Assembly: GCA_947477565.1 (NCBI GenBank)
Contig: CANJUR010000020.1
Coordinates: forward strand, 1-64,000
DNA length: 64,000 bases
DNA from: Deltaproteobacteria bacterium
GTDB lineage: Bacteria; Myxococcota_A; Polyangia; Polyangiales; Ga0077539
Direction of reading: 5' to 3'
Part shown: positions 6,763 to 59,762 of the stretch, piece after piece
Layout: each line of letters begins with the position of its first letter
How positions within the stretch are numbered: position 1 is the stretch's first letter
Notes under the pieces: model-generated
The model's input: only the letters and a program-made list of their open reading frames with translations
Databases searched by the model: none
Told to the model about the DNA's origin: nothing
Position numbers and translations under genes: made by a program

Positions 6763-7007
6763 GCGACCCGCTCGCTGGCGTCCCTTCCGAGGCCGTCGAC
6801 CGGGCGCTCGCGGAGAGCGCTGACGAGATGGGACTGCCCGAGTACTACAGCTCCTGCGTGCGGCCGCTGCTGCGGATGCCGCGGACGCAATGGCCGCAGT
6901 GCTGCAACGGCGGCTGCGATCCGTGCAGTGAGACCCTGCGTCGGGTGGCCGCGGGGACGCTGGCGCGGCTCGGGATAACGGTGCTAGAGCGAAGCGATAA
7001 TGGCTGA
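6759..7007 (+). CDS. Small Cys-rich protein inside the arginine operon
   Basis: This 82-residue ORF begins in the ATGA that ends argB and overlaps the argD start by eight bases, so it must be translated with the operon. It is acidic at the N-terminus (VDRALAESADEMG) and then has a compact cysteine cluster, SSC near residue 32 and QCCNGGCDPC near 47-56, resembling a metal site. The rest is an amphipathic helix (ETLRRVAAGTLARLG). The CC-x3-C-x2-C pattern recalls the small Oxidored-like proteins (CCGSGCxxC), but the match is local. Function unknown; regulation of, or metal or redox association with, arginine enzymes is speculation. Confidence 0.75.
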   Translation: MSDPLAGVPSEAVDRALAESADEMGLPEYYSSCVRPLLRMPRTQWPQCCNGGCDPCSETLRRVAAGTLARLGITVLERSDNG

Positions 7008-8217
7008 CACCAATGCGTTATTGGCGCTCGCTGGGCGTCACTTGTTGAAGACGTACAAGCAACCCCCACTGGTCATGGCTCGCGGTGAGGGGTGCCGCCT
7101 CTACGACACGGAGGGCAAGTCTTACCTGGACTTGTATGCAGGCATCGCGGTGTGCGTGCTTGGTCACGCGCACCCGGCGCTGGTGAAGGCGCTCACGGAG
7201 CAGGCCGCGCGCCTCGGGCACATCGCCAACCTGTACTACAACGACCGGCAGATCGAGCTCGCTGCGCAGCTTTGCGCGCGCACGGGCATGGATCGGGTGT
7301 TCCTCACCAACAGCGGTACTGAGGCCAACGAGGGGGCGCTGAAGTTGTCGCGGCGTTGGTTCTTCACCCAGGGCGAACCTGAGCGAATGGACATCGTGGC
7401 GACGTGGAGTTCGTTTCACGGTCGCTCGATGGGTGCCATGGCGATGACGGGCACGCCGAAGTACTGGGAGGGCTTCGGGCCGCGTCTGCAGGGTGTCTCG
7501 CAGGTGAAGTACGGCGACCTTGAGGCCATGCGTCGGCGCGTCAACGACCGCACTGCGGCGATCATCGTCGAGCCGGTGCAGGGCGAGGGCGGCGTTTTGC
7601 CGGCCCCGGCGGGCTACCTTCAGGGGTTGCGCGATCTCTGCGACGCGACCGGCACGCTGCTCATCATTGATGAGATTCAGACTGGCGTCGGGCGGAGCGG
7701 GATGTACCTCGCGGTGCAACACGATGGAATCGTCCCTGACGTGCTTACGCTCGCGAAGGGCCTTGCCGGGGGCGTGCCCATCGGGGCTTTCCTGGTGCGC
7801 GAGAAGTACGCTGACGCGTTGGTGCCGGGCACCCACGGCAGCACCTTTGGCGGCAACCCGTTGGCGTGCGCGGCGGGGCTCGCGGTGCTGGAGACGCTCG
7901 ACCGAGAGGGGCTCATCGAGGGCGCGGCCGCGAAGGGAACCTACTTCCTCTCGAAGCTTGAAGCCTTCGCGGTGAAGTACCCCGCGCTGGTCAAGGGAGC
8001 GCGCGGGCGCGGCCTCCTCTGCGGCCTCGTGCTGACCGACCACGTCGAGGCCCGCGAGGTGCTCGGCGCGCTGCGCGACCGGGGAGTTCTCATCGCTCAG
8101 GCGGGCGACCACGTACTGCGGTTCGCGCCGCCGCTGATCGTGACCGAGGCAGAGCTTGATGAGGGCCTCGCGGCACTCGACGGGGTGTTGGCAGACCTTG
8201 CGAGTCGTGCCGGATGA
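7000..8217 (+). CDS. argD: Acetylornithine aminotransferase
   Basis: A PLP-dependent class-III aminotransferase of 405 residues that converts N-acetylglutamate semialdehyde to N2-acetylornithine with glutamate as donor. Landmarks: LDLYAGIAVCVLGHAHP near residue 45, SGTEANEGALKLSRRW for phosphate binding, FHGRSMGAMAMTG, IVEPVQGEGG, IIDEIQTGVGR with the PLP-ring Asp, and the Schiff-base lysine in TLAKGLAGGVPIGA. Length and motif spacing are normal. The ATG overlaps the preceding Cys-rich ORF, and its stop overlaps the argF start (ATGA), so translational coupling is likely through the whole set. A related ornithine/GABA aminotransferase is less likely given the argB/argF context. Confidence 0.95.
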   Translation: MADTNALLALAGRHLLKTYKQPPLVMARGEGCRLYDTEGKSYLDLYAGIAVCVLGHAHPALVKALTEQAARLGHIANLYYNDRQIELAAQLCARTGMDRVFLTNSGTEANEGALKLSRRWFFTQGEPERMDIVATWSSFHGRSMGAMAMTGTPKYWEGFGPRLQGVSQVKYGDLEAMRRRVNDRTAAIIVEPVQGEGGVLPAPAGYLQGLRDLCDATGTLLIIDEIQTGVGRSGMYLAVQHDGIVPDVLTLAKGLAGGVPIGAFLVREKYADALVPGTHGSTFGGNPLACAAGLAVLETLDREGLIEGAAAKGTYFLSKLEAFAVKYPALVKGARGRGLLCGLVLTDHVEAREVLGALRDRGVLIAQAGDHVLRFAPPLIVTEAELDEGLAALDGVLADLASRAG

Positions 8218-9116
8218 ACCCGAAGTTGAAGCGCGATTTTCTCCGGGTTGCTGACCTGACCACGGAGGAGTTGAGCCACCTGCTCGCGCACGCCGGCGCG
8301 ATGAAAAACGAGCGCCATCACGGCGCCGTTCGGCGACCCCTTGAGGGGCGCAGCGTGGCGTTGATCTTCGAGAAGCCATCGACGCGCACGCGGGTCTCTT
8401 TTGAGGTCGGAGCCTTCGAGCTTGGCGCGCACCCGGTGGTGCTTAGTTCGCGGGACATGCAACTGGGGCGGGGCGAGTCCATCGCGGACACGGCGCGCAC
8501 GTTGTCGCGGTACGTGCACGCCATCGTGCTGCGCACCGCCGGGCACGATCGCATCGAAGCGCTCGCTGCCGCCGCGTCGGTGCCGGTCATCAACGCGCTG
8601 ACCGACGATCACCACCCGTGTCAGATTCTGGCTGATTTGATGACGGTTCGCGAGCGCAAGGGGACGCTTGAAAGTCTTCGCTACGCGTGGATCGGTGACG
8701 CCAACAACGTCGCCCGCAGCTGGGTCGAGGCGGCCGAGCGGTTTGGCCTTGCGCTCACCGTGGCGTCGCCGGAGGGCTACGGTTTCCACGCAAACGAGCT
8801 CCCGCCCAACGTGCGGCAGGTGGTCGATCCGCGGGAGGCCGCGCGGGGCGCCGACGTGGTGATCACGGATGTGTGGGCGTCCATGGGGCAGGAGGGCGAC
8901 GCGGTGGCTCGGCGCGCTGCTTTCGCGGGCTATCAGGTCAATCGCGATCTGTTGGTCGAGGCGAACCCCGATCCGCTGGTGTTGCATTGTCTGCCGGCGC
9001 ACCGCGGGGAGGAGATCGACGCGGCGCTGATCGACGGCTCTGACACGGCGGTCTGGGACGAAGCGGAGAACCGACTGCACGCCCAGAAGGCGCTGCTTGA
9101 GTTCTTGATGCTCTAG
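8214..9116 (+). CDS. argF: Ornithine carbamoyltransferase
   Basis: Transfers the carbamoyl group of carbamoyl phosphate to ornithine, giving citrulline. The 300-residue protein shows the carbamoyl-phosphate loop EKPSTRTRVSFE near residue 53, SRDMQLGRGESIADTARTLSRY, the HHPCQ motif near 137-141 (ADLMT following), the ornithine-side VWASMGQE and the HCLPAHRGEEI motif near 263-273 with its catalytic Cys. All hallmark residues are present, and the length fits anabolic OTCases. It is the last gene of the operon; argG/argH are not in this window. Confidence 0.95.
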   Translation: MNPKLKRDFLRVADLTTEELSHLLAHAGAMKNERHHGAVRRPLEGRSVALIFEKPSTRTRVSFEVGAFELGAHPVVLSSRDMQLGRGESIADTARTLSRYVHAIVLRTAGHDRIEALAAAASVPVINALTDDHHPCQILADLMTVRERKGTLESLRYAWIGDANNVARSWVEAAERFGLALTVASPEGYGFHANELPPNVRQVVDPREAARGADVVITDVWASMGQEGDAVARRAAFAGYQVNRDLLVEANPDPLVLHCLPAHRGEEIDAALIDGSDTAVWDEAENRLHAQKALLEFLML

Positions 9117-9132
9117 AGGTTGGAATCGACGA

Positions 9133-9152
9133 AACGGGCACACATGCCCGTT
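9133..9152 (+). terminator. Hairpin after argF, possible terminator
   Basis: A perfect 8-base inverted repeat, AACGGGCA-CACA-TGCCCGTT, lies 16 bases after the argF stop. There is no clear U tract, so it may be a weak terminator or an mRNA-stabilising hairpin. Confidence 0.4.
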
Positions 9153-9184
9153 GCCAACTGGTGCGGACTGGACGACCGTAGGGT

Positions 9185-9200
9185 GGACGACAGGTCGTCC
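9185..9200. promoter_or_regulatory. Palindrome upstream of dnaK paralogue
   Basis: GGACGACAGGTCGTCC is a near-perfect palindrome (7-base arms, AG centre) ending 19 bases before the ATG of the DnaK-like gene, with a further GGACGACC half-copy about 15 bases upstream. It does not match the CIRCE/HrcA box. An operator for an unknown regulator or a 5'UTR hairpin are both possible. Confidence 0.35.
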
Positions 9201-9219
9201 TCAGCGAGTGGGTTCTCGG

Positions 9220-11055
<1,836 letters not shown>

Positions 11056-11089: not shown

Positions 11090-12295
11090 ATGGCAACCCA
11101 CCAGGGTAAAAAGACACCGACCGGATTGGAGATCGACGACTGGTTCGATCTCCTCGACGAGCAGTCCGCGGCTCCTGTTCCTATGGCTCCGGAGCCACTT
11201 GCAGAGGTCTTGCGGGAGGTCACGCCGACTGCCGCTCCTTACGCGGACTCCTGGGACTGGGACGTGGAAACCCCGGTGGTAGGGCTTCCACCACCGACGG
11301 AAGCCTACGCCGACGAGGAGTTCACCGACTTCGGCGCGCCAACTCCGGTCACTGCTCCGATCAGTGCGGACAGCATCGCGTCGCTCCCGAAGGCTGACGC
11401 CTCGCGGCGTTTCGAGGGGCCGGTGATGTTCGGTGCGATCCCGCTTCCGCCATCCGATGCGGCTGCCATCGAGTCCGGGATTCCGCCCTTGCTGCCGCCG
11501 ATTCCGCAGGAAGCTCTCTCGTCCGAGGCCACGGGTGTCCCGGAGACTCAACAGCGCACGCCGGTCCCTCGCGTGACGGTGTCTCACGCGATTCCGCAGG
11601 TGGTTGCCCTGCCGCCTCTGGCTGCCTGGGTGGCTCCGCAACCGGCGTCGGCTTTCTACTCTGCGCACAAAGCGCTGACCGGCGATCTGGACGACCTCGA
11701 GTTCGAGGACATCTCTACGTCGCGCTCGACCTTGCAGGGGCACGGCGGGCTTCGCTCGGAAAAGGTGACCGACCGTCGGGGCAGTCCGCTCGTCGAGGCG
11801 GAGTATCCGCGCTCGTTGCGGACGCCGGTGGTGCAGCACTCCATTCCCCTGGAGGCGAAGCGCTCGCCGGTGCCGGGCTACCCTCCGGTCGGTGCCCATT
11901 CGCTCATGCCGCCGTCTACGCAGAGTGAGATGGTCGATCGGTTTGAGCTCGGTGACTTTACCGGTGCCCTCTCGCTCGCTGAGACATTGCTGGAGATCGA
12001 TCGAACCGACCCCGAAGCCCAGCGCATCGCGGAGGCCTCCGGCACGAAGCTACGAGCGATTTACATCGGTCGCCTTGGGGCACTCGATCAAGTGCCGGTG
12101 ATGATGATTCCGCACGCCGAGTTACGCTGGCTGGCGCTCGATCACCGCGTGGGTTTTGTGCTGTCACTCGTGGACGGAATGTCCAGCAGCGAGGACATCG
12201 TCGATGTCTCCACGATGCCGCAACTTGAGGTGCTTCGAACGCTCTACAACCTCCTCAGCCAGAATGTGATCTCGCTGAGGAGGCCGCGGCGTTGA
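11090..12295 (+). CDS. Conserved protein of unknown function, DnaK neighbour
   Basis: A 401-residue protein with two parts. Residues ~1-270 are Pro/Ser/Ala-rich and probably disordered, with acidic patches (LEIDDWFDLLDE, DLDDLEFEDIS). Residues ~290-400 are folded: a TPR-like helical pair (RFELGDFTGALSLAETLLEIDRTDPEAQ) followed by a winged-helix-like segment around ALDHRVGFVLSLVDGMSSSEDIVDVSTMP and LRTLYNLLSQNVI. That second segment recurs at the C-terminus of many deltaproteobacterial regulatory proteins. It starts 34 bases after the dnaK stop on the same strand, so the two are likely co-expressed, and it may be a DnaK client or adaptor. No catalytic motif seen. Confidence 0.65.
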   Translation: MATHQGKKTPTGLEIDDWFDLLDEQSAAPVPMAPEPLAEVLREVTPTAAPYADSWDWDVETPVVGLPPPTEAYADEEFTDFGAPTPVTAPISADSIASLPKADASRRFEGPVMFGAIPLPPSDAAAIESGIPPLLPPIPQEALSSEATGVPETQQRTPVPRVTVSHAIPQVVALPPLAAWVAPQPASAFYSAHKALTGDLDDLEFEDISTSRSTLQGHGGLRSEKVTDRRGSPLVEAEYPRSLRTPVVQHSIPLEAKRSPVPGYPPVGAHSLMPPSTQSEMVDRFELGDFTGALSLAETLLEIDRTDPEAQRIAEASGTKLRAIYIGRLGALDQVPVMMIPHAELRWLALDHRVGFVLSLVDGMSSSEDIVDVSTMPQLEVLRTLYNLLSQNVISLRRPRR

Positions 12296-12299
12296 GCAA

Positions 12300-13064
12300 C
12301 TACATCGAGAGCCCGCCGTCGATGTCGATGGTGCGGCCGGTGAAGTAGTCGCACTCGAGTACGAAGCGCACGCCCTGCCAGATGTCCTCCGGGACACCGA
12401 CCCGACCCGCCGGGACCTTCTCCACGAGCGCGTCGCGCGCCTTCGGGTTCATCCCCTGGGTCATCGGTGTCTCGATCATGCCTGGAGCAATCGCCCCGAC
12501 GCGGATTCCGTACGTGCCGAACTCCCGTGCCCAGGTCAGCGTGTTGGCCGCGAGGGCAGCCTTCGCCGCGCTGTAGTTCGACTGTCCACGGTTGCCGTAT
12601 CGGGCGATGCTCGACATGTTCACGATTACCCCGGGGCGCGTGTTGGTCTCCATCATCTTGGCGATCACCTCGCGCGCAATCATCGTCGCGCCGGTGAGGT
12701 TGACGTCGATGACGGCGTTCCACTGATCGCGGGACATCTTGGTGATGGCGCCCGTTTCGCGGTCCTTCTTCACCAGGAGCCCATCGCGCAGGATGCCTGC
12801 GTTGTTGATGAGCCCGTTGAGCCCGCCCATCGCTTCGTGGGCCCATTGGACGAAGTCCACCACTTCCGACTCGTCGGCCACGTTGAGCTTTCGCGTGTGC
12901 AACTTGCCCGGACCCGTCACCGACGCCGCGAGCGTCGCGAGGCCGTCTTCCTTCACGTCCCCGACAGCAACCTGCGCCCCTGCCTCTACCAGCCGCTTCG
13001 CGAAGTGCGCGCCCATGCCCTGCGCTCCGCCCGTGACGATGATCTTGAAGGTGCTGAGTTCCAT
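12300..13064 (-). CDS. Short-chain dehydrogenase/reductase
   Basis: A classical SDR of 254 residues. The NAD(P)-binding motif TGGAQGMG lies near residues 12-19, D-V-K follows beta-2, NNAG is near 86-89, and the catalytic triad is Ser in NMSSIARYG with YSAAK about 13 residues later. The C-terminus ends FTGRTIDIDGGLSM as in FabG/3-hydroxyacyl-CoA dehydrogenase relatives. The ATG at 13064 has GAGGAGA seven bases upstream and is preferred to the in-frame ATG seven codons earlier. The acidic residue after beta-2 favours NAD. Substrate unknown; a fatty-acid or polyketide 3-ketoacyl reductase or a 3-hydroxyacyl-CoA dehydrogenase are candidates. Convergent with the preceding gene, 4 bases between stops. 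Confidence 0.85.
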   Translation of the reverse strand: MELSTFKIIVTGGAQGMGAHFAKRLVEAGAQVAVGDVKEDGLATLAASVTGPGKLHTRKLNVADESEVVDFVQWAHEAMGGLNGLINNAGILRDGLLVKKDRETGAITKMSRDQWNAVIDVNLTGATMIAREVIAKMMETNTRPGVIVNMSSIARYGNRGQSNYSAAKAALAANTLTWAREFGTYGIRVGAIAPGMIETPMTQGMNPKARDALVEKVPAGRVGVPEDIWQGVRFVLECDYFTGRTIDIDGGLSM

Positions 13065-44604: not shown

Positions 44605-44929
44605 ACGGGCGTCACCAGAGTTTGGAGATAGCCGTGGGTCTGTTTGGTGTCTTCCTGTCGCGGTCTGCAAGAGACCTTTGAGCGATCAGGGAATGTGCGG
44701 AAGGGAGAAGGTGGCCCGGCTGCACCGCGATCTACGCTGCCGTTGCTTCGTTTCCGACCTGGCGGGGTTCACGAGCCAAGGTCAGCCGGGCCATACAATC
44801 TTCAGGATCTCTCCCTCGGACGGCGCGGTCTTTAACCCAGGCTTCTCCGGGTGGCAACCAGAGAACTCAGGAATCATCCATCGTCGTGCGCTGGAGTCCG
44901 CGCCCCGATGGGGATACAAGCCGCTCATC
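44605..44929. other. Intergenic region with long-range inverted repeat
   Basis: No gene is supported in these 325 bases. A perfect 10-base inverted repeat, GGCCCGGCTG (44713-44722) and CAGCCGGGCC (44783-44792), could form a long stem-loop around 60 bases. The stretch is less GC-skewed than flanking genes and probably holds the promoter of the GNAT-like gene. Confidence 0.4.
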
Positions 44930-50143: not shown

Positions 50144-51022
50144 ATGGCAGTCCTCTCGCCCGCGGTCCGCCGCCGCCGCCTTCAGATTGATCGCGCTCTC
50201 GTCGCGGTCGCGGCCTTCCACCGCGGCTTCGATCCGCGCCGCGCGCTCGCCACGGACCCGCTCCGTTTCGCGCATCGGTACGCCGACCCCGATGACCGGG
50301 CGCTCATCGCGCTGCTCTCGGCGCTGATGGCCTTCGGTCGCATCGCCACCATCGGGCAGAAGCTCGAAGAACTTTGCGTCCGGCTCGGACCGTCGCCCGC
50401 CGATGTGCTTCGTCGCGAGTCCCCATCCGAGCTACGCGAGCGCCTTCGCGGCTTCAAGCACCGCACCTTTCGCGGAGCCGACGTCGCCGACCTGCTCTTC
50501 GCCCTCGGGGAAAACCTACGGCGCGATGGTCACGTCCTCGCGACCCTCGAGCGCGCGTGGGATACCCATCGCGACCTACGCCCCGCGCTCGCGGAGTGGG
50601 TTCATCAACTCCGCGCGATCGCCTGGCCGTGCGGCGCCGACCGCGCGCAGCAGCACCTTCTCCCGGACCCCACCGGGCCCAGCGCGTCGAAGCGGCTGAT
50701 GTTGTTTCTGCGCTGGGTGGTGCGGCGATCGGGCGTCGATCTTGGGCTCTCGACCATCCCCGCGGCGGCGCTGCTGATGCCCGTGGATGTGCACGTCCAC
50801 CGCATCGCTCGCAACCTCGGCTTCACCACGCGCACGGACGCATCCTGGCGGACCGCCGAGGAGATCACCGCAGCGCTTCGACTGCTCAGCGCGGATGATC
50901 CGGTGCAGTACGACTTCGCGCTCTGCCACCTCGGCATCAGCGGGCGCTGCCCGTCGAGCAGCAAACTCCCCGAGCGCTGCGTGGGCTGCGCTCTGCAGAC
51001 AGTTTGCGTGCACTGGCGTTGA
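50144..51022 (+). CDS. TIGR02757-family (DUF2400) protein
   Basis: A 292-residue protein of the TIGR02757 family, cytoplasmic and related to HhH-type DNA glycosylases. Motifs: DPLRFAHRYADPDDRALIALLSALMAFGRI, FKHRTFRGADVADLLFALG, LMLFLRWVVRRSGVDLGL, LLMPVDVHVHRIARNLGFTTR. The C-terminal C-x9-C-x2-C-x5-C (CPSSSKLPERCVGCALQTVC) resembles the iron-sulphur loop of endonuclease III. DNA-repair function is inferred from the fold and not proven. It stands 34 bases before the RiPP-type genes and may share their promoter, but it is a common stand-alone gene. Confidence 0.88.
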   Translation: MAVLSPAVRRRRLQIDRALVAVAAFHRGFDPRRALATDPLRFAHRYADPDDRALIALLSALMAFGRIATIGQKLEELCVRLGPSPADVLRRESPSELRERLRGFKHRTFRGADVADLLFALGENLRRDGHVLATLERAWDTHRDLRPALAEWVHQLRAIAWPCGADRAQQHLLPDPTGPSASKRLMLFLRWVVRRSGVDLGLSTIPAAALLMPVDVHVHRIARNLGFTTRTDASWRTAEEITAALRLLSADDPVQYDFALCHLGISGRCPSSSKLPERCVGCALQTVCVHWR

Positions 51023-51056: not shown

Positions 51057-51455
51057 ATGATGGGGCTGGCTGAGCGTGTGATCATCGACCGTCTGCGCGA
51101 GGGCGCTCCCGCCCGTTGGACCGCGCGTGGGAGCAGCATGTGGCCCGCGATCCGGGACGGCGCGACGGTGTCGGTGGTCCCCGGCGAGGTCCGATCGTTG
51201 CGCGCGGGAGAGTTCGTAGCGTTCGTGCGTGGCGCGACGCTGGTCGTCCACCGCGTCGTGGCGGTGTCCGAGGGTGGCCTGCGCTGCCGCGGCGACGCGC
51301 TCGCACGGGAAGACGGCGTCGTCGCGTGGGCGGAGGTGCTGGGCCGCGCGACAGTGCTTACGCAGCCGTCGCTCGCGCTTCGATGGCCGCGGCCGCGCGA
51401 ACTGCGGGCGCTGCTCCGGGCGGCGCTGGGCACCCTGCGGGCGGGGCTCGCGTGA
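51057..51455 (+). CDS. S24/S26-type peptidase-like protein, first gene of RiPP locus
   Basis: Short (132 residues) and without a membrane anchor. The motif TARGSSMWPAIRDGATV holds the nucleophile-type Ser27 of LexA/signal-peptidase folds, and LVVHRVVAV gives the next strand. Where the catalytic Lys is expected (KGD motif) the sequence has RCRGD with Arg78. Such stand-alone S24/S26-like proteins are recurrent next to PqqD/radical SAM or HprK-related genes and are candidates for leader removal, or have become non-catalytic. GGAAGG precedes the ATG. The next gene starts in its stop (GTGA). Confidence 0.8.
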   Translation: MMGLAERVIIDRLREGAPARWTARGSSMWPAIRDGATVSVVPGEVRSLRAGEFVAFVRGATLVVHRVVAVSEGGLRCRGDALAREDGVVAWAEVLGRATVLTQPSLALRWPRPRELRALLRAALGTLRAGLA

Positions 51456-52291
51456 GGCTCGATATCGCGGGGTTGCGCGTTCTCATCGCGGCGACCGGGC
51501 CGATCAACGACCGCAATTTTCAAGCGCGCTTCGGGCAGTACACGGCGCTCGACGATCAGCGCGCGGACGACCTTCGGCTCGACATCCGCGTCGATCCGGC
51601 GTGGGTGGCGCCGCGCCCGGTTCGCAACCGGTATCCCGGGGTCGATTTCCAGCGCGACCCGGACGGGGCGCTTCGCTTCCTTCGCCCGGACAGCGAGACG
51701 CGCATCTACCTGGGGCAGCACCGCGCAGAGTCGATCACGCGCCCCACGATGATCACCGACGATCCGATGGACGACATCACCCCGATCGACACGCCTCTGC
51801 GCCTCCAGCTTGCAAGTGAACTTCCGGCGCACGCCGGCGCGATGGTGCACGCCTGCGGCTACGCTGACGACCGCGGCGCGGTGCTCTTCATCGCGCGCTC
51901 GGGCGGCGGCAAGACCACCACCGCGCGCAAGCTCCCTCCGACACACGTACTCTCCGACGACCTCGTGGCCGTTCGGCACACTCCCGACGGCTGGGACGCC
52001 CACTCGCTGCCCTTCGTCGGCGAGTGGCGTCGCCCGACGGTTCCGCGGCGCGGGCGCTTACGGGCACTGGTATTCCTTCGCAAAGCCGACGATCTCGCCG
52101 TGTCCGTGTGTCCGCCAGCGCTGGCCTTCCCCGACATGCTCCAGGCGATGGTGTGGTTTGCGCAGGGAGATCCGGTCGCCGCGACGCTGCTCGACCACGC
52201 GCAGTCGCTCATCCGCACGGTCCCCTGCGTATCGCTCGCCCTGCCGCGCGATCAACCGGTGCTGCCGCTGCTCGATCGCTGGCTCGCATGA
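51452..52291 (+). CDS. HprK-related P-loop kinase (first copy)
   Basis: A 279-residue protein from a GTG overlapping the previous stop. Its second half resembles the HPr kinase/phosphorylase core: HAGAMVHACG (127-136), P-loop ARSGGGKTTTAR (148-159, Lys154) and the acidic pair LSDDLVAV (167-174) at the HprK catalytic Asp. HprK-related kinases in RiPP and exosortase-type loci are known; one kind phosphorylates the C-terminal Ser of lasso peptides. The N-terminal ~120 residues are a divergent beta-rich domain. Here it likely acts on the locus peptide or a small carrier protein. Stop overlaps next start (ATGA). Confidence 0.82.
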   Translation: MRLDIAGLRVLIAATGPINDRNFQARFGQYTALDDQRADDLRLDIRVDPAWVAPRPVRNRYPGVDFQRDPDGALRFLRPDSETRIYLGQHRAESITRPTMITDDPMDDITPIDTPLRLQLASELPAHAGAMVHACGYADDRGAVLFIARSGGGKTTTARKLPPTHVLSDDLVAVRHTPDGWDAHSLPFVGEWRRPTVPRRGRLRALVFLRKADDLAVSVCPPALAFPDMLQAMVWFAQGDPVAATLLDHAQSLIRTVPCVSLALPRDQPVLPLLDRWLA

Positions 52292-53058
52292 GCACCGTCT
52301 CGGGCCTGCGCTTCGGACGGCTCGCCCTGCGGGTGGAGGGCCCCGCGCTGCATCCTCTGCTCGACGCCTACCGCGCGCCCGTCGCCGCGGATGCCCGCAG
52401 GGTGTTGCTCTCGGTGGTCGCGTCGCTGCCGCCGGAAGCCCTCGCCGCGACGTCCTCCGTGGGCTTCGCGCTCACCGCGACCGCCGACCACGACGCCATC
52501 ACGCTCGGCGGCGATGCGGCGCGGCCCACTCCCTGGCTCGCGGCCTTCTGCGAGTTGGTCGCCCGCGATGCCGCGACCCACGGGTGCCTGCTCGTACACG
52601 CGGGCGCGGTCACCGTCTCCGGGGGAGTTGCGCTGCTGGTGGCGCCGCCGGGCGTGGGCAAGACCACCGCGGTCCGTCACGCCGTAGACCGCGCCTTCGC
52701 CTCCAACGCCGTGCTCCTGGACCTGTCCGGTGGCACGGCGACGGTGCGAGCGATGCCGTTCACCCGCGAGCCGATGCCCGCGCTCGAGTCCGCGGCGACG
52801 CTGCCGCTGTCGGTTTTCGCGTTCGTCGAGCGGGCCTCGGAATCGACCGTTGAATGGATCGCGCCGTCGCTCGCAACCATGCGCCTGATGCCGCACGTCA
52901 CGCGCCCTCGAGGGGCTGATCCCCACGCCCGCACCCGCACTGATCTCGCGCTGATGCTTGGCGGCAAGGCCCGCGCGCTGAGGCTGGGCTTGCCTTCGGG
53001 ACCGGGCTATCTTGCCGCCCTCGACGCCGCCCTTCACACCACGACCAACCCAGTATGA
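52288..53058 (+). CDS. HprK-related P-loop protein (second copy, acidic pair lost)
   Basis: A 256-residue relative of the preceding gene with the same HAGAV-then-P-loop order: LLVHAGAVTV near 101-110 and VAPPGVGKTTAV near 118-129 (Lys125). The Asp-Asp pair expected after the P-loop is not seen; the following strand reads NAVLLDLSGGT. It might bind nucleotide but lack kinase chemistry, or form a heteromer with the first copy. Start and stop both overlap neighbours by ATGA, so all five proteins of this run are made in a coupled way. Confidence 0.75.
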   Translation: MSTVSGLRFGRLALRVEGPALHPLLDAYRAPVAADARRVLLSVVASLPPEALAATSSVGFALTATADHDAITLGGDAARPTPWLAAFCELVARDAATHGCLLVHAGAVTVSGGVALLVAPPGVGKTTAVRHAVDRAFASNAVLLDLSGGTATVRAMPFTREPMPALESAATLPLSVFAFVERASESTVEWIAPSLATMRLMPHVTRPRGADPHARTRTDLALMLGGKARALRLGLPSGPGYLAALDAALHTTTNPV

Positions 53059-53336
53059 ACGCCCAACGTACGGTTCACCACGCCCCCGACGCTGTCTGGC
53101 GACGTTACGACGATCAGGTCGCCGTGATCTCCCTCGACGCCAACCGGGTCCGCCTCTTCAACGGCGTCGGGAGCTTCCTCTGGGAGCACTGCGATGGCAC
53201 CACTCTCGAACAGATGGTCAGCGCGGTGTGCGCGCGCTTCGCAGTAGACGAGGTCACTGCACGGGCTGACGTGGAGGGATTCATCGACGACCTTGTGGCT
53301 CGCGGGCTGCTCCGACCGATCGCCACAGAGACATGA
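53055..53336 (+). CDS. PqqD-family RiPP recognition protein
   Basis: A 93-residue PqqD-like protein. It follows the family pattern: AVISLDANRVRLFNGVGSFLWEHCDGTTLEQMVSAVCARF, then a helix DEVTARADVEGFIDDLVARGLL. This is the RiPP recognition element (RRE) fold: three beta strands and three helices that bind leader peptides and present them to radical SAM or other enzymes. Its stop overlaps the radical SAM start, a layout typical of peptide maturases. It resembles the HPr-rel-A-type PqqD group by context, as it sits beside HprK-related genes. Confidence 0.9.
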   Translation: MNAQRTVHHAPDAVWRRYDDQVAVISLDANRVRLFNGVGSFLWEHCDGTTLEQMVSAVCARFAVDEVTARADVEGFIDDLVARGLLRPIATET

Positions 53337-54649
53337 ACGGCGCACAACTTCTCCGCTCCCTGGCGCTGCGGCATGGCCGACCGATGGGGGTCCACCTGCA
53401 GGTGGCCGATCGGTGCAACCACGTCTGTCAGCACTGCTACCAGGTGCAAGGAGAGAAGGGCGAACTGAGCTTCGAGAAGCTCTGCGAAGTCATCGATGGC
53501 ATCGCCGACGCGGGGGTGTTTACCCTCAACGTAAGCGGCGGCGAGGCGACGCTCCGGCCCGACCTTCTTGAGATCCTTCGTTATGCGCGCGGCCGCGGTT
53601 TCGCAGTGCGCCTCTTTACGAACGGCTTCTTGATCGATGAGGTTTACGCGGACGCGCTTGCGGCCGTTGGTCTGCTCGAGGTTCACGTGAGCCTCTATTC
53701 GGGACTCGCGGAGGAGCACGACGCCGTGACCCGCGTGCCCAGGTCCTTCCATCGCACCGTGGCTGCCATCACGTCGCTCCGCCAGCGCGGCGTGCGCGTG
53801 GTGTTGAAGACCCCGGCGACGACGCTCTCCGTGCGCGGCGCTCAAAGTGTCGAGGCGCTTGCGCTGCGCCTCGGGTGCGAGCACCAGTCCTCCACCGAAC
53901 TGACCATGCGCGAAGACGGAGCGGCTGATCCGTGGGCGGTTCGTGTGACGCCGGAAGACCTGCTGCGCGAGGGCATGCTGAGCGCATGGACGCCCGCGGC
54001 GGACGAAGCTGGCGAGCGCGCGGTGAAGCTCGCGACCTTCCCTTGCGGAGTCGGTCGATCGGGCCTCGTGGTGCTACCCGATGGCCGGCTGCAGGCGTGC
54101 ACCGACACTCCCAACGTCCTCGCCGACCTCACGCAGCACTCACTGGCCGACGCCCTGCGAAGCGCGCCCGAGCGCGAACTCTTCGAGACGCTAAACTGGT
54201 CGCGGATTCACGGGTGCCGTGACTGCGATCTGCTGACCGCTTGCGCTCGTTGCCACGCGACGGCGCTACACGAAGGCGGTGATTACCTCGGGCCGTATGC
54301 CTCGGCCTGCGCGCGGGCCCGAGCGCGGTACAGCGCCGCCGCTGGATCGCTCGAGGTGACCACTCCGACCGCGGACTGTGAACCCGGTCGTGACCCGAGC
54401 GTCGGGCCGTATGCGATCGTGGCGGCGGGGGTCATCCAACCGCTGCGAGACGTGCGTACGGCTGATGATGACGCGATGGCGGCTCGATTTTCGTGGCTCC
54501 GTCGGGCGGTTGCGCGGCCCGCGGACACGGGTCTGGTATCGATTCGTCGCAAGCCCACAGTGGAGTCTTTACAGACCCCTATTGGGGAAACAGGCAGCCT
54601 GCCTCAGACCGGCATGGGTGTGATAAGCCCGCTTCGCCAACCGCTCTAA
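53333..54649 (+). CDS. Radical SAM/SPASM peptide maturase
   Basis: A 438-residue enzyme. The SAM cluster motif is CNHVCQHC (Cys28, Cys32, Cys35), followed by VSGGEATLRPDLLEIL (GGE 69-71). The SPASM domain has Cys238 and Cys256 (CGVGRSGLVVLPDGRLQAC), Cys295, Cys298, Cys304, Cys307 (CRDCDLLTACARC) and Cys326, the seven-Cys pattern for two auxiliary 4Fe-4S clusters. Such enzymes form thioether, C-C or C-O crosslinks or decarboxylate peptides. Residues 340-438 are an unusual, poorly conserved-looking tail. It overlaps the PqqD gene and ends 23 bases before the giant lipoprotein gene. Confidence 0.92.
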   Translation: MNGAQLLRSLALRHGRPMGVHLQVADRCNHVCQHCYQVQGEKGELSFEKLCEVIDGIADAGVFTLNVSGGEATLRPDLLEILRYARGRGFAVRLFTNGFLIDEVYADALAAVGLLEVHVSLYSGLAEEHDAVTRVPRSFHRTVAAITSLRQRGVRVVLKTPATTLSVRGAQSVEALALRLGCEHQSSTELTMREDGAADPWAVRVTPEDLLREGMLSAWTPAADEAGERAVKLATFPCGVGRSGLVVLPDGRLQACTDTPNVLADLTQHSLADALRSAPERELFETLNWSRIHGCRDCDLLTACARCHATALHEGGDYLGPYASACARARARYSAAAGSLEVTTPTADCEPGRDPSVGPYAIVAAGVIQPLRDVRTADDDAMAARFSWLRRAVARPADTGLVSIRRKPTVESLQTPIGETGSLPQTGMGVISPLRQPL

Positions 54650-54672
54650 ACAAACCATCTCGGGGATTAACC

Positions 54673-57600
54673 ATGGCGCACCGCATTCGTATGGGCCTTC
54701 TGCTTCCGTTGCTCGCTACCGCGGCTGTCGGTTGTTCGGACAATCCGATCCCGCCGCCGCTCGACGCGGGCGGCGACGTTGCGGACGGTGCAGTCGATGG
54801 CGCAGTCGTCGATGCGGCAACCGACATCGGGACGGACGCGGGCCCTCGCTGCCCGACGGTTGAGTTCATCCGCCCGACCGCGACGGCGGTGTTGGGCGTC
54901 GCTGACGACGCCGACAACAACTGCAGCAACGGCTTCTCTTACAGCGTTCAGTTCGCCACCAACGCCCCGGTGGGCTCGCGTCTTGAGCTCTTCGTCAACG
55001 GCCGCAGCGTGGGCAACAACACCGTGAGCGGCGCGACGGTGCGCTTCGAGGGCGTGCAGTTCGACACCGGCGCGATGTCAACGCTGGAGGTTCGCCTGCC
55101 GGGCACAACTGTCGCGTGCGGCACCACCACGGTGACCATCGACTGCAACGTTCCGCGGTGCTCGATCACGGCCCCGACGGGCAGCACGCTCAACCTGACC
55201 GACAGCACTGCGGGCGCTGGGATGCCCTTCGCCACTTCATTTGCGGTGAGCACCAACATCGAAGACGGCCGCGAGGTCGAACTTTCCATCACGGGCACCG
55301 CGACGCCGCTGCGCGCTGCGGTGATGGCGGGCATCGCGCGCTTCGCCAACGTCGCACTGAATCCCGATGGTGAGTTCGTCACGCGGGCCACGTGCACCAA
55401 TCGCGCGGGCAACGTCGGCCGCTCCGCGGAGAGCCGTTTCAACGTCGATTCGGTGGCACCCATCCTCACGGTGCAAAGCCCGATGGCCAGCAGCACCATC
55501 GGCCTCTCCGGGGACGTCAACGCCGCGATCGCCGGGGTGCAGTTCAATGTGTGCGCGCGCAGCGACGCCGCGGGCCGACGGGTGTGCGCCAACGTGATGG
55601 GCTCGACGCCGGCCGATCCGGCGGGTTGCGCCCAAGTCCCCGCTTCGGCGACCACCGACGCGTGCGTTCAGGTGACCTGCCCAGACGGCAACGCGCCCTT
55701 CTCAGTAGAGGTATCGACGCAGGACGCAGCGGGAAATATCGCCCGCAGCACCATCGCCAACGTGCGTTGCCAGTCGTCGCTCCCGTCGGTTCGCATCATC
55801 ACTCCGGTCGCGTACGACTCCACTAACGCGGAGACGATCCTCAACGCCGCGCGCGATGCCAACCCCACCGCCCCGGGGATGCAGGTGGACGTCGTGGCGT
55901 GCACCGACCGGGCAGCGGGAAACGCTGTGCTTACGCGTGACACGGTCACGACGCCGATCGCGATGGCGGCGGTCGCGCCCACCGCGGCGGGCGACCCTTG
56001 CGCCGCGCTGGGCATGGGCTTCGTTGGCATCGCGCGATTTCCCGGCGTGACGCTGCCCGAGTCGTTTCCGTTGCGCACGGTTCCGACGGCGCCGGGCCCG
56101 ACCAACCCCGCGCTCCAGGTGTCGGTCACCGATGGCGCGGGCGACCGTGGCTCATCTGCACCGACGCCGCTCTACGTGGACTCGGCGGTGCCTGGGCTCA
56201 ACATCTTCAACTGCAACCGCATCGTTCGTCCGGGCACCGATGGCACCGGGCGCTCGAACGTCGTGATCAACAGCGATGCCTACCCGGTGACGCTGAGCAT
56301 CACGCGCACAGGCGACATGCCCCGCACGCTCGACCTCGCGGCCCCGACGATGACGGGCGGTACGAGCACCTTCGAGAACATCCAGTTCTTCGCCGGGACC
56401 ACCACGCTGCGCCTCGCGGCGACGGACCCGGCGGGCAACAGCGCCACGACCAACGGGATGTGCACCATCGATGTGGGCAATCCTCCGACGCTGGCGTTTA
56501 CGAGCCCGACGCCGAGCGCGATCTTCACCTCGACTTCGACCACGGTGCGCCTCAGTACGGACGCTCCGAACGGAACTGTCGTGAGCCTCAGCATCAATGG
56601 CGGCACTGCCGTCACGGCGCCCACGACAGGCGGTGTCGTCACGTTTACCGGCGTTACGCTGCCGGACGGCGATGCGGTCAATCTCCTGGCGACCACAGCG
56701 GACGTCACCGGGCGCGGAGTCGGGACAGCCTCCGTCACGGTGGTCGTTGACTCGAGGCTCCCTTCGGCTCCGGGGAGTCTGGTCGCGGCGATCGAGACCA
56801 TCCCGCGCTCGGCGCGACGCGCGGGCACCATCCACCTCACCTGGACCGACGGCTCGGACCCAGCTCCCTCGGGAATGGGTACCCGTGCGGTTCAGCGCTA
56901 CGAGCTGCGCACGGCCAACGTCCCACTCACGGCGACCAACTTCAGCGGCGGCACCGTCGCGGTGTCTACGGCCACCCCCGGGATGCCCGGCGCGGCCAAC
57001 AGCGTAGACCTCAACGGGTTCCAGCTTGGCCGACCGTATTACGTCGGTATCCGTTCGTTCGATGTCGGCGGTAACGCGAGTCCGACCGTGGTCTCGGCGG
57101 GTCCGGTGACACCGGATATCGTCGTCGATCAGATTCTCAACGCGATTCCTCCGCTCGGTAACAGCGTGTCCGGCGGACAGGACTTCGACAGCGACGGTTT
57201 CGCCGACATCCTGGTGGGCTCGGGCACCTCTGCATCCGGTGCGGGCGGCTTCGCGCGCATTTACTTCGGCTCCGCGACGGGCGTCTCGGGCACGAACTTC
57301 ACGGAGTTTCGCGGCGGCGCATCCGACGGTCGCTTCGGTAACGTCGTAGCGGCGCTCGGAGACGTAAACGCCGACGGCGTGGCCGATCTCGCGATTGCGG
57401 AGCCTGGACCGACCACGACGGGCATGACTCGCGCGGGCACGGTGTATCTGTTCTTCGGACGCCCGACGTCCGCGTGGCGTCACGGCGCGGCGGTCTACCT
57501 GCCGCCGGACGCGGACGTTGTCATCGGTGGTGGCACCGTGGACTTCGCGACGGCGCGCCTCGGCCAGTCGCTCGCGCGCGTCGGCGACTTCGACGGTGAC

Positions 57601-58476
57601 GGCATCAACGACGTGGCGATCGGCGCCCCCACCGCGCTCAACGGTGGCGCGGTGGTCGTGTTTCGCGGTCGCGCCGTCTGGCCCGCAACGATCTCGCCCA
57701 ACGCGGCCGAACTGATCATCCGTAACAACGGCACGACAAGTTCGTTCGGCTTCTCGATCGCCGGGGTCGGTCGGGTGATGGGCGGCGATGCCCTGGAAGA
57801 CCTGGCCATCGGCGGAGGGTTTTCGTCCACGCCTGGCGCTGCGTATATCTTCGCGGGCCGCTCTCTCGCGACGCCGCTCGCTCTCAGTGTGACCGCTGCC
57901 AACTTCACCCGCACGGGTGTGGTGGCGGGCAGCGCCGGAAGCGCGACGGGTTCGACGGCCGCGAGCGGTCAGTCGATCGTGGGCGGCGTCGGTGACATCA
58001 ACGGCGACGGTCGCAGTGACGTGGCGATCGGTACGCTCGGCGGCCTCGGTGCTGCCGGTGAGGTGTTTCTGTACCTTGGCTCGGCGGACGGCAACCTCGC
58101 AGCGGGCCCAAGCATCCGCGCGTCCGCGCAGGGTGGGGCCAACGACATCTTCGGGCGCTCGATCGCGTCGATCTACGACCCCACGCAGATTCGCCCGTCG
58201 CTGCTCCAGGCCGGGGCCCCCTCCGCGGACCTGCTCGTCGGCAGCCAGGCGCACGAGGTCAGCAACCCGCCGCGCATGTACGTCTATCGCGGGCGCGATA
58301 CGACCGCCTGGGTCGGCGCCACGACCGCCACTGCCAATCGCTTCGTGGCCACCACCGGAAGCGGCACCAGCCTCTCGATCACGAGTATGAACTGGGTGGG
58401 CGACACCGACGGCGACGGTGCGGTAGACGCGGCCTTCGCCCAGTTTGGAACCGGAACGCTGTTCATCGTGCGGTGA
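54673..58476 (+). CDS. Giant Ig-like/FG-GAP repeat lipoprotein
   Basis: A 1267-residue outer-membrane-type lipoprotein (lipobox TAAVGC, Cys21, then Asp/Ala/Gly-rich spacer). Residues ~55-730 are repeated Ig-like domains of about 90 residues with conserved Cys pairs (repeat marks: RLELFVNGRSVGNNT, VELSITGTATPLRAAVMAGIARFANVAL, VVSLSINGGTAV). A FN3-like part follows, then at ~825-1267 an integrin-type FG-GAP propeller: SGGQDFDSDGFADILVG, LGDVNADGVADLAIAEPG, VGDFDGDGINDVAIGAP, VGDINGDGRSDVAIGT, WVGDTDGDGAVDAAFA. The DxDGDG loops bind calcium. It sits between maturase and precursor gene. Likely a surface adhesin, or the target or carrier of the peptide. Confidence 0.82.
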   Translation: MAHRIRMGLLLPLLATAAVGCSDNPIPPPLDAGGDVADGAVDGAVVDAATDIGTDAGPRCPTVEFIRPTATAVLGVADDADNNCSNGFSYSVQFATNAPVGSRLELFVNGRSVGNNTVSGATVRFEGVQFDTGAMSTLEVRLPGTTVACGTTTVTIDCNVPRCSITAPTGSTLNLTDSTAGAGMPFATSFAVSTNIEDGREVELSITGTATPLRAAVMAGIARFANVALNPDGEFVTRATCTNRAGNVGRSAESRFNVDSVAPILTVQSPMASSTIGLSGDVNAAIAGVQFNVCARSDAAGRRVCANVMGSTPADPAGCAQVPASATTDACVQVTCPDGNAPFSVEVSTQDAAGNIARSTIANVRCQSSLPSVRIITPVAYDSTNAETILNAARDANPTAPGMQVDVVACTDRAAGNAVLTRDTVTTPIAMAAVAPTAAGDPCAALGMGFVGIARFPGVTLPESFPLRTVPTAPGPTNPALQVSVTDGAGDRGSSAPTPLYVDSAVPGLNIFNCNRIVRPGTDGTGRSNVVINSDAYPVTLSITRTGDMPRTLDLAAPTMTGGTSTFENIQFFAGTTTLRLAATDPAGNSATTNGMCTIDVGNPPTLAFTSPTPSAIFTSTSTTVRLSTDAPNGTVVSLSINGGTAVTAPTTGGVVTFTGVTLPDGDAVNLLATTADVTGRGVGTASVTVVVDSRLPSAPGSLVAAIETIPRSARRAGTIHLTWTDGSDPAPSGMGTRAVQRYELRTANVPLTATNFSGGTVAVSTATPGMPGAANSVDLNGFQLGRPYYVGIRSFDVGGNASPTVVSAGPVTPDIVVDQILNAIPPLGNSVSGGQDFDSDGFADILVGSGTSASGAGGFARIYFGSATGVSGTNFTEFRGGASDGRFGNVVAALGDVNADGVADLAIAEPGPTTTGMTRAGTVYLFFGRPTSAWRHGAAVYLPPDADVVIGGGTVDFATARLGQSLARVGDFDGDGINDVAIGAPTALNGGAVVVFRGRAVWPATISPNAAELIIRNNGTTSSFGFSIAGVGRVMGGDALEDLAIGGGFSSTPGAAYIFAGRSLATPLALSVTAANFTRTGVVAGSAGSATGSTAASGQSIVGGVGDINGDGRSDVAIGTLGGLGAAGEVFLYLGSADGNLAAGPSIRASAQGGANDIFGRSIASIYDPTQIRPSLLQAGAPSADLLVGSQAHEVSNPPRMYVYRGRDTTAWVGATTATANRFVATTGSGTSLSITSMNWVGDTDGDGAVDAAFAQFGTGTLFIVR

Positions 58477-58508
58477 GCGGTCGATACAACGCTGAAGAGG
58501 AGTCCACT

Positions 58509-58676
58509 ATGTCCCCCGAGAATCAGATCCTGAACCCCCCGGCGCTGCTCCCCTACGAGGCGCCGCGCGTCGTCGAAGACCTCCCCCTCGAGACCTACAG
58601 CCTCGCCTGCGACAGCGGCTCAGGTGGGAAGAACCCCGGCGCCTGCGACACTGAGGGCGGCATCGCCAACACCTGA
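58509..58676 (+). CDS. Candidate RiPP precursor peptide
   Basis: A 55-residue peptide, ATG with GAGGAG eight bases upstream, 32 bases after the giant lipoprotein gene. The N-terminal part has a leader-like LLPYEAPRVVEDLPLETYSL (13-32): the Y-E-x-P-x-V-x-D/E pattern is seen in many PqqD/RRE-bound precursors. The C-terminal part is Gly/Cys/Asp-rich: two Cys (34, 46), each in an ACD motif 12 residues apart, then EGGIANT. No signal peptide or Lys-rich region. Placement beside PqqD, radical SAM and kinase-like genes makes a substrate role likely. The stop lies nine bases from the convergent nucleotidyltransferase gene. Confidence 0.72.
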   Translation: MSPENQILNPPALLPYEAPRVVEDLPLETYSLACDSGSGGKNPGACDTEGGIANT

Positions 58677-58685
58677 TCGACGCGC

Positions 58686-59543
58686 TCAGCGCAGCACGCG
58701 GTCGAGCGCACGCAAGGCCGCATACCGCAGCGCCCACCCGGGCAATCCTCCCCACCGATCACTCAAGACCGGCCGCTCGAGCAACACCCCCGAGCGGCGG
58801 CCCATCGGCCGTCGCCGACCGAGCGACGAGCCCACATCGATCCAACGCCCGATGATCCGGCGACGAAGCTGCATCCATGGTTGGAGCTCCCAGGGAGTTG
58901 GGGGCACGTCGATGCCCCACGCGCGGAGGTGTTCGAGGAAGATCTGTAGCGCCAGGCGCATGCCGCCCCGCGACGCTTCTCGAAACACCAGCGGCCAGTC
59001 GAGGGTCTCCCGCGCGAGCAGGCGAATCACATCGTCGGCGTGGCGGGCGTCGATCTCGTACAGGTGATTGGCGTAGTGGAGCGCGGCGTAGAGGAGTTGG
59101 TCCTCCGTGCCGAGCGAGCGAATCGTCTCGTCCCCAGCGGGCCAGTCGCGGGCGCGGGAAAACACCGCCGCGGGATCGAGGTCGAACCATGGGGCTTCGG
59201 CGAGCGCGCGGTGCAGATCGACGGGAATCCACGGGCCGGGATGCGAGTAGGTCCACTCCTTGGAGCCCCACTCGATGGTCGCGCGATGCGTGGCAGGCTC
59301 GTAGCGGCGGAAGCCACGCTGCTCAAGCGCGGCAGCGAAGGCCTCAAAGCGGCCAGGGCTGATCAGGACATCGAGGTCGCTTCCAGTGCGCGCGCCGTGC
59401 GCCCCGAAGAGCACCGCGTCGGACCACGCCGCCTTGAGAAACAGAACGTCCGCGCCGACCTCGCGACCGATCTCCCGGAGCAGCGCGCGCTGTCGATGAA
59501 ACAGCAGCGCTTGCACCCTTCCTGCGTTCAGTCGGGTCGCCAT
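58686..59543 (-). CDS. Nucleotidyltransferase-family protein (NTP_transf_5-like)
   Basis: A 285-residue protein with the polymerase-beta-type nucleotidyltransferase signature of the NTP_transf_5 group: FLKAAWSDAVLFG, then GARTGSDLDVLI (51-61; Asp56 and Asp58 as metal ligands), FEAFAAALEQRGF, VDLHRAL, and a helical C-terminus (LYAALHYANHLYEIDARHADDVIRLL). Family members are frequent beside HprK-related kinases, PqqD proteins and asparagine synthetases in lasso-peptide and other RiPP loci. It may adenylylate the peptide or a phosphorylated intermediate, which is inference. Transcribed convergently to the precursor. Confidence 0.85.
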   Translation of the reverse strand: MATRLNAGRVQALLFHRQRALLREIGREVGADVLFLKAAWSDAVLFGAHGARTGSDLDVLISPGRFEAFAAALEQRGFRRYEPATHRATIEWGSKEWTYSHPGPWIPVDLHRALAEAPWFDLDPAAVFSRARDWPAGDETIRSLGTEDQLLYAALHYANHLYEIDARHADDVIRLLARETLDWPLVFREASRGGMRLALQIFLEHLRAWGIDVPPTPWELQPWMQLRRRIIGRWIDVGSSLGRRRPMGRRSGVLLERPVLSDRWGGLPGWALRYAALRALDRVLR

Positions 59544-59576
59544 CGCGTGCGTTGGTTGATCTGGAGTCGTCGCCGT

Positions 59577-59762
59577 TCAGGCGCTGTTGGCCTTGTCGAG
59601 CGCGGCGCGGTCGTCGAGGCAACCCACCAACCACCAGCGGCGCGTCTGCTCCCAGCGCGAGAAGGCCATGTCGGCCTCCGCGAGCGTGTCGAGGTCGCGG
59701 TCGCTGATGAGGTAATGGGTGCCTGCGGTGCTGAGTCCCTCGTCCTGATCGTCGTCGTGCAT
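59577..59762 (-). CDS. Small acidic protein upstream of nucleotidyltransferase
   Basis: A 61-residue ORF with GAAGGGA before the ATG, 33 bases upstream of the nucleotidyltransferase gene on the same strand. It begins MHDDDQDEGLSTAG and continues with YLISDRDLDTLAEADMAFSRWEQTRRWWLVGC and a basic/Ala end (ALDKANSA). One Cys (near residue 46). It is unrelated to the 55-residue peptide except that both end in a short Ala-Asn-Ser/Thr tail (IANT and ANSA). It may be a second substrate, an HPr-like carrier or an immunity protein. No known family. Confidence 0.65.
   Translation of the reverse strand: MHDDDQDEGLSTAGTHYLISDRDLDTLAEADMAFSRWEQTRRWWLVGCLDDRAALDKANSA

Follow-up and report, generated by a model that had tools for sequence, protein, structure and literature searches.

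What might an operon produce that places a radical S-adenosylmethionine (SAM)/SPASM maturase and a PqqD protein beside two HprK-related proteins, and is followed by a gene for a 55-residue peptide? We investigated this for the locus at positions 51057–59762 of a 64,000-nucleotide stretch of contig CANJUR010000020.1 (the window, meaning the whole stretch), which belongs to a draft genome from the Myxococcota (6.65 Mb, 252 contigs). With a probability of about 0.72, we favor a ribosomally synthesized and post-translationally modified peptide (RiPP) of the radical SAM kind, whose C-terminal Ser/Thr would be phosphorylated by the first HprK-like protein (HprK1) and whose leader would be cut off before a Cys by a soluble S26 protease. 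A combination of radical SAM and phosphate chemistry, which the original prediction had proposed from the gene combination, remains the best reading. The genes of the locus are as follows:

51057–51455, + strand: S26-type (Ser-His) peptidase, soluble, predicted leader protease (TIGR02228, E 4e-7; sod_Ni_protease, 2e-4)
51452–52291, + strand: HprK1, P-loop kinase of the HPrK/PEPCK fold, predicted C-terminal Ser/Thr peptide kinase (GTG start; from motif, AlphaFold2 (AF2) and Foldseek)
52288–53058, + strand: HprK2, paralogue of HprK1, probable pseudokinase partner (from alignments)
53055–53336, + strand: PqqD-type RiPP recognition element (PF05402, E 6e-17)
53333–54649, + strand: radical SAM/SPASM maturase (PF04055, Radical_SAM, 6e-18; PF13186, SPASM, 6e-6)
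54673–58476, + strand: large outer-surface lipoprotein, 1267 amino acids (aa) (Pfam FG-GAP, 4e-19, and Big_13 Ig-like domain; lipobox AVGC)
58509–58676, + strand: precursor peptide, 55 aa (leader, two Cys and Ser/Thr end conserved among 91 unique homologues)
58686–59543, − strand: NTP_transf_5 protein resembling nucleotidyltransferases, optional enzyme for a late tailoring step (PF14907, E 4e-25)
59577–59762, − strand: small acidic protein, 61 aa

The first five genes (S26-like, HprK1, HprK2, PqqD and radical SAM) overlap by 4 bp at all four junctions, and the coordinates confirmed these overlaps together with the lipoprotein, peptide and convergent nucleotidyltransferase genes described downstream of them. 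This gene order is common to relatives of the same genus (71–88% identity for most proteins) and of the same family (about 38–60%), and its core is kept across the order. The arrangement is not due to chance, since dozens of genera have these genes next to homologues of the peptide.

A phmmer search with the window peptide, followed by a profile, returned one related small open reading frame in nearly every radical SAM locus. We searched a peptide-only profile (A1, then A4) in 379 Myxococcota genomes and 318 genomes of the window's class, two sets that partly overlap, retrieved the flanks of the matches, and counted as neighbors those homologues lying within 9 kb of the precursor. The profile found 91 unique precursors, accompanied by HprK at 82 loci, radical SAM at 82, PqqD at 71, S26 at 67, the FG-GAP lipoprotein at 55 and NTP_transf_5 at 24; many of the absent neighbors reflect contig ends. 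Since most genomes were found by the peptide alone, the association between peptide and enzymes was independently tested. A short peptide conserved beside homologous loci, on which the proposal of a RiPP-type system had been staked, was thus found in the form of these 91 precursors with modifying enzymes alongside. No NCBIfam or Pfam model matched the precursor; in three loci (L051, L059 and L063) a precursor was looked for and none was found, and a locus labelled Candidatus Eisenbacteria (L039) gave only a doubtful candidate.

The role of precursor assigned to the 55-residue peptide also agrees with its homologues, which combine a conserved leader with a variable core. The window precursor consists of MSPENQILNPPALLPYEAPRVVEDLPLETYSLA followed by CDSGSGGKNPGACDTEGGIANT, the predicted cleavage site lying between them, and its last residue is Thr; AAGAGGAG is found upstream of the gene. 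Precursors share the pattern YxxP…FExxxLAC (with an F/LExxxL variant), an invariant Cys and a second Cys, while other positions vary. The leader begins with a variable, often Arg/Lys-rich segment before YxxP and F/LExxxL, and the spacing from the Tyr of YxxP to the first core Cys is exactly 18 residues in 74 of the 91. Two Cys are present in 83/91 precursors at variable spacing, with little else common to the cores, which would be 14–24 residues long in most precursors, assuming cleavage before the Cys.

We next consider the C-terminal residue, which is Ser in 68 and Thr in 8 precursors (76/91; Thr in the window). These counts take related precursors as units and are descriptive, not strict probabilities. 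After sequences more than 70% similar were dropped, a Ser/Thr end remained in 54 of 69, against a mean of 17.5 of 68 (about 26%) and a maximum of 33 in 20,000 trials when the end residue was picked randomly within each tail. Between 0 and 13 residues follow the last Cys, and Ser/Thr tracks the end, not the Cys. Its frequency is 0.79 at the end, 0.39 one residue before and 0.14 two residues before, and neighboring proteins have such an end in 0–20% of cases. Precursors found with a leader-only profile carried it in 71 of 82 cases, as did 16 of the 21 from loci found via the radical SAM enzyme alone. No other core Ser/Thr was conserved among the precursors.

The candidate enzyme for this end is HprK1. 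By sequence, both HprK calls fell below every curated cut-off (ScmC, 17.8 bits of 125; HprK_rel_A, 16 of 200 for HprK2), with HprK1 weakly resembling the ScmC and HprK_rel families; searching the PDB by sequence for relatives of HprK1 yielded no informative match, and fold comparison was used instead. The AF2 model of HprK1 has a mean pLDDT (predicted local distance difference test) of 88.5, and all 39 Foldseek matches at E ≤ 0.001 were phosphoenolpyruvate carboxykinases (PEPCK) or HPr kinase/phosphatase (HPrK/P). PEPCK and HPrK/P are known structural relatives, and the modeled fold confirms HprK1 as HprK-like. Its catalytic-motif residues are His133, Lys154, Asp169 and Asp170; 82/82 HprK homologues keep the His and the P-loop Lys, and the Asp-Asp/Glu pair is present in most, not all. 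Of the two HprK-related proteins, HprK1, which keeps the His-Lys-Asp-Asp motif and matches the fold, is the only one that seems to be catalytic. HprK2 keeps His104 and Lys125 and is probably a non-catalytic pseudokinase partner, because in alignments Ser-Asn-Ala replaces its acidic pair; second HprK copies in other loci likewise lack the pair. The AF2 model of HprK2 is poor (pLDDT 37), and it was called by homology to HprK1 alone.

Kinases of lasso peptides carry the same His-Lys-Asp-Asp motif, and one of them, PadeK, phosphorylates a C-terminal Ser that is extremely conserved in lasso precursors with a kinase (PMC9266682). PsmK likewise phosphorylates the C-terminal Ser, and adding hexose to that phosphoserine requires PsmN, a homologue of nucleotidyltransferases (PMC9266682). 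The window family, with its kinase motif and Ser/Thr end, bears the signature of the PadeK group.

Several observations weigh against phosphorylation of the C-terminal residue. The search profile included C-terminal columns, a mild bias, and the leader-only check gave the same result. Fifteen of the 91 precursors lack a Ser/Thr end despite the presence of a kinase (Ser/Thr is penultimate in 9 of the 15), and the end is kept less strictly (14/21) in a kinase subgroup without the first Asp. Conversely, in a few loci (L125 and L193) the precursor ends in Ser with no HprK detectable; others without HprK are interrupted by contig ends. Moreover, the residue phosphorylated by BsfK, which is a related lasso kinase of Bradymonadales, is Ser3 rather than the C-terminal end (PMC10368454); this Bradymonas enzyme needs H148, K169, S170, D186 and D187 and is stimulated by the recognition protein B1 (PMC10368454). 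As BsfK comes from the same phylum, the HprK-like protein of a radical SAM RiPP could instead phosphorylate another residue or a partner protein, with the Ser/Thr end kept as, for example, a recognition end for the S26 protease, an exporter or the nucleotidyltransferase. The somewhat higher share of Ser/Thr ends in loci with NTP_transf_5 (23/24, versus 53/67 without the gene) would suit such a role. We consider this rather improbable: loci without a visible NTP gene also mostly have Ser/Thr ends, the cores offer no other conserved Ser/Thr, and the His-Lys-Asp-Asp motif with a C-terminal Ser is the signature described for the PadeK group (PMC9266682).

Two further genes were observed near the kinase gene. 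A protein of about 440 aa with a cyclic-nucleotide-binding domain and a tetratricopeptide-repeat-like N-terminus recurs there in 11 loci (L042, L043, L052, L054, L055, L057, L058, L060, L061, L062 and L064), which suggests regulation linked to cyclic nucleotides. In one genus-level group (L098, L099, L162 and L170), the HprK gene adjoins a gene for a small SAM-dependent methyltransferase, a possible extra tailoring step.

The parallel with PadeK raises the question of whether the locus is itself a lasso-peptide system, either intact or reduced to a remnant. Phosphorylated lasso systems (paeninodin PadeK, ThcoK, SyanK, and pseudomycoidin PsmK/PsmN) share with it an HPrK-type kinase with the His-Lys-Asp-Asp motif, a conserved C-terminal Ser, a PqqD-like protein, a YxxP leader and an optional nucleotidyltransferase; PqqD, HprK and NTP_transf_5 are all lasso companions, there are weak matches to lasso PqqD and leader profiles, and one genome (G106) has an Asn_synthase gene directly 5' of the precursor. 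However, the asparagine synthetase and transglutaminase-like protease noted as missing at the outset are indeed absent from the window locus, and across 38 genomes no locus of the family has Transglut_core3 nearby, while only 1/38 has an adjacent Asn_synthase. The core of the window peptide has no Asp/Glu at positions 7–9, where 26 of 88 cores have one if cleavage occurs before the Cys, and a radical SAM enzyme is the constant partner. We rejected lasso membership since the B2 protease is missing nearby, the cyclase is found in a single genome and the acceptor Asp/Glu is absent from the window core, and a lasso origin appears very unlikely. Rather than a lasso cyclase and B2 protease, the window system has a radical SAM/SPASM enzyme and an S26 protease, together with a core that is predicted to start with Cys and contains two conserved Cys, and a surface propeller lipoprotein. 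The peptide system thus resembles the phosphorylation branch of lasso biosynthesis and is not itself a lasso system. The asparagine synthetase homologue of G106 (L066, G106:C314, 2584–7097) is full-length, and a Kelch-repeat protein is encoded directly 3' of the precursor; the homologue could provide extra tailoring or be a chance neighbor.

The radical SAM enzyme contains the motif Cys28-x3-Cys32-x2-Cys35 (CX3CX2C) and seven SPASM Cys (238, 256, 295, 298, 304, 307 and 326), and the named families closest to it are of several kinds (mycofactocin, GeoRSP and NirJ/AhbD). Maturases of sactipeptides and ranthipeptides are likewise radical SAM enzymes with a SPASM domain, and the cores that they modify contain Cys; the likeness extends to the two core Cys only, and the window system differs in having a kinase and an S26 protease. 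Thioether or other Cys-centered radical chemistry on the core would be our guess. The window PqqD fell below the cut-off of every NCBIfam PqqD subfamily, including that of the HPr-rel-A type expected for it, so that HPr-rel-A membership was rejected (13.6 bits of 35 on TIGR04353; 16 of 200 for HprK2 on the kinase model TIGR04352).

Resemblance of the radical SAM and PqqD proteins to those of mycofactocin, GeoRSP and PqqE could also point to a cofactor or redox pathway like those for pyrroloquinoline quinone (PQQ) or mycofactocin, with a small molecule as its product and the peptide serving just as carrier. We regard such a pathway as unlikely, given that the cores vary strongly yet keep their length, two Cys and end, and that neither a Glu-Tyr nor a Val-Tyr pair is conserved in them. 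Elsewhere, the genome also has a separate PqqD–radical SAM pair (L049, G000:C5:126000-144000, 8195–10283), preceded by a 236-aa gene, which looks like a PQQ (PqqC-D-E) cluster unrelated to the peptide system.

Two cassettes predicted by NCBIfam were also compared with the gene set. SynChlorMet (ScmC/D/E/F) likewise combines PqqD and radical SAM proteins with the HprK-like ScmC, which among named families is the one closest to many kinases of the present loci, but it has two radical SAM enzymes where the window system has one with an identified precursor. We know of no precursor identified for SynChlorMet. GeoRSP supplies the best NCBIfam matches for the window PqqD and radical SAM proteins, and the window system differs from it by its kinase, S26 protease and precursor family. 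Membership was rejected for both, as scores stayed below the cut-offs for SynChlorMet (ScmC 17.8/125, ScmD 33.8/100, ScmE 60.3/400; other family members also below) and GeoRSP (TIGR04302 42.8/100, TIGR04303 101.9/400).

How would the leader be removed? The S26 match is weak but consistent (TIGR02228, 4e-7), and the NCBIfam matches include a soluble protease for nickel superoxide dismutase maturation. Among the homologues in 67 loci, the Met and His are conserved in 100% and the Ser in 85%, and none of 51 called S26 genes encodes a transmembrane segment. The residue before the Cys (−1) is Ala/Ser/Gly/Thr in 78/88 precursors, and that at −3 is Ala/Ser/Val in 77/88. Small-x-small before the cut is the rule of signal-peptidase-type enzymes. 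Because of this pattern, together with its solubility and retained catalytic residues, the S26 protein is likely a leader protease cutting before the first Cys, which in the window peptide would be Cys34. The LAC motif was also considered as a lipobox and rejected, since −3 is Ala/Ser and not Leu, and no hydrophobic signal segment lies ahead of it.

Natural fusions tie these enzymes together. HprK is fused to S26 in L122, L181, L182 and L184, all of one family (f20), and to PqqD in L051, a single-contig genome, while L128 encodes S26 and the NTP transferase as one protein; these fusions support a common action on one substrate. Wherever the NTP_transf_5 gene is present, its DxD residues are 100% conserved. 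In the compact operon of L128, an ABC transporter gene lies directly 3' of the S26-NTP fusion and a gene resembling those for sugar-nucleotide epimerases directly 5' of HprK (6242–7984 and 11499–12497), neighbors that would fit export and sugar decoration.

With a homologue near the precursor in 55/91 loci, the FG-GAP lipoprotein belongs to the conserved locus and is not a bystander. A lipobox-like sequence occurs in 31 of the 43 complete homologues, and the protein is probably surface-exposed. Elsewhere a Kelch-repeat (L066) or EGF-repeat protein (L104) adjoins the precursor in its place. The bsf lasso cluster of Bradymonas sediminis, a Myxococcota relative, is bordered by an FG-GAP protein that its authors judged unrelated (PMC10368454). 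That cluster (BsfK, BsfN) also pairs a kinase with a nucleotidyltransferase, but it is a true lasso cluster whose kinase acts on Ser3. By analogy with the conserved lipoprotein of the window family, its FG-GAP protein may be a real partner.

The gene set, precursor family, motifs, HprK1 fold, fusions and C-terminal Ser/Thr were shown by the analysis, and from them we infer every enzymatic step of the following pathway. PqqD would bind the precursor through its leader (YxxP...F/LExxxL) and present it to the tailoring enzymes, among which the radical SAM/SPASM enzyme would modify a core whose sole constant residues are the two Cys. HprK1, probably assisted by HprK2, would phosphorylate the hydroxyl of the C-terminal Thr (Ser/Thr in homologues), in the way that lasso precursors are modified by PadeK, ThcoK and SyanK. 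Where encoded, NTP_transf_5 may attach another group to this phosphate, much as PsmN seems to do. Cleavage after small-x-small by the soluble S26 protease would release a core of about 14–24 residues with a Cys start and a Ser/Thr end. The FG-GAP lipoprotein would be a conserved cell-surface partner, perhaps in reception, display or immunity.

To our knowledge, C-terminal phosphorylation by HPrK-like enzymes has so far been shown only in lasso peptides. If the proposed pathway is correct, it extends to radical SAM RiPPs across Myxococcota, as predicted from about 90 precursors, and the named precursors with their predicted cleavage and phosphate sites make the chemistry directly testable. The system may also help explain orphan cassettes of the SynChlorMet type (HprK-like, PqqD and radical SAM), and it draws attention to FG-GAP lipoproteins as genuine partners of RiPP loci that carry a kinase. 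More tentatively, and at somewhat less than even odds, the loci could define a new class of RiPPs that is frequent throughout the Myxococcota: peptides crosslinked by the radical SAM enzyme, phosphorylated at the C-terminus and sometimes further decorated, matured to an N-terminal Cys by the soluble, signal-peptidase-like S26 protease, and co-produced with a dedicated surface propeller lipoprotein by which they are received or displayed. The operon family is widespread and apparently undescribed; among open-licence papers searched in full text, we found none on such HprK plus PqqD/radical SAM/FG-GAP RiPP systems or on SynChlorMet, and an earlier description elsewhere is possible.

At the edges of the locus, the small acidic protein, at first counted among the components, has homologues in 4 loci of the same genus only and, being conserved only within the genus, is probably outside the system. 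A DUF2400 gene (50144–51022) lies directly 5' of the operon in the window, as it does in another genus of the family (L050, 12308–13078), and is probably conserved housekeeping context. Farther upstream, the window encodes a bacterial small signal recognition particle RNA (44706–44796, − strand; Rfam RF00169, 52.9 bits).

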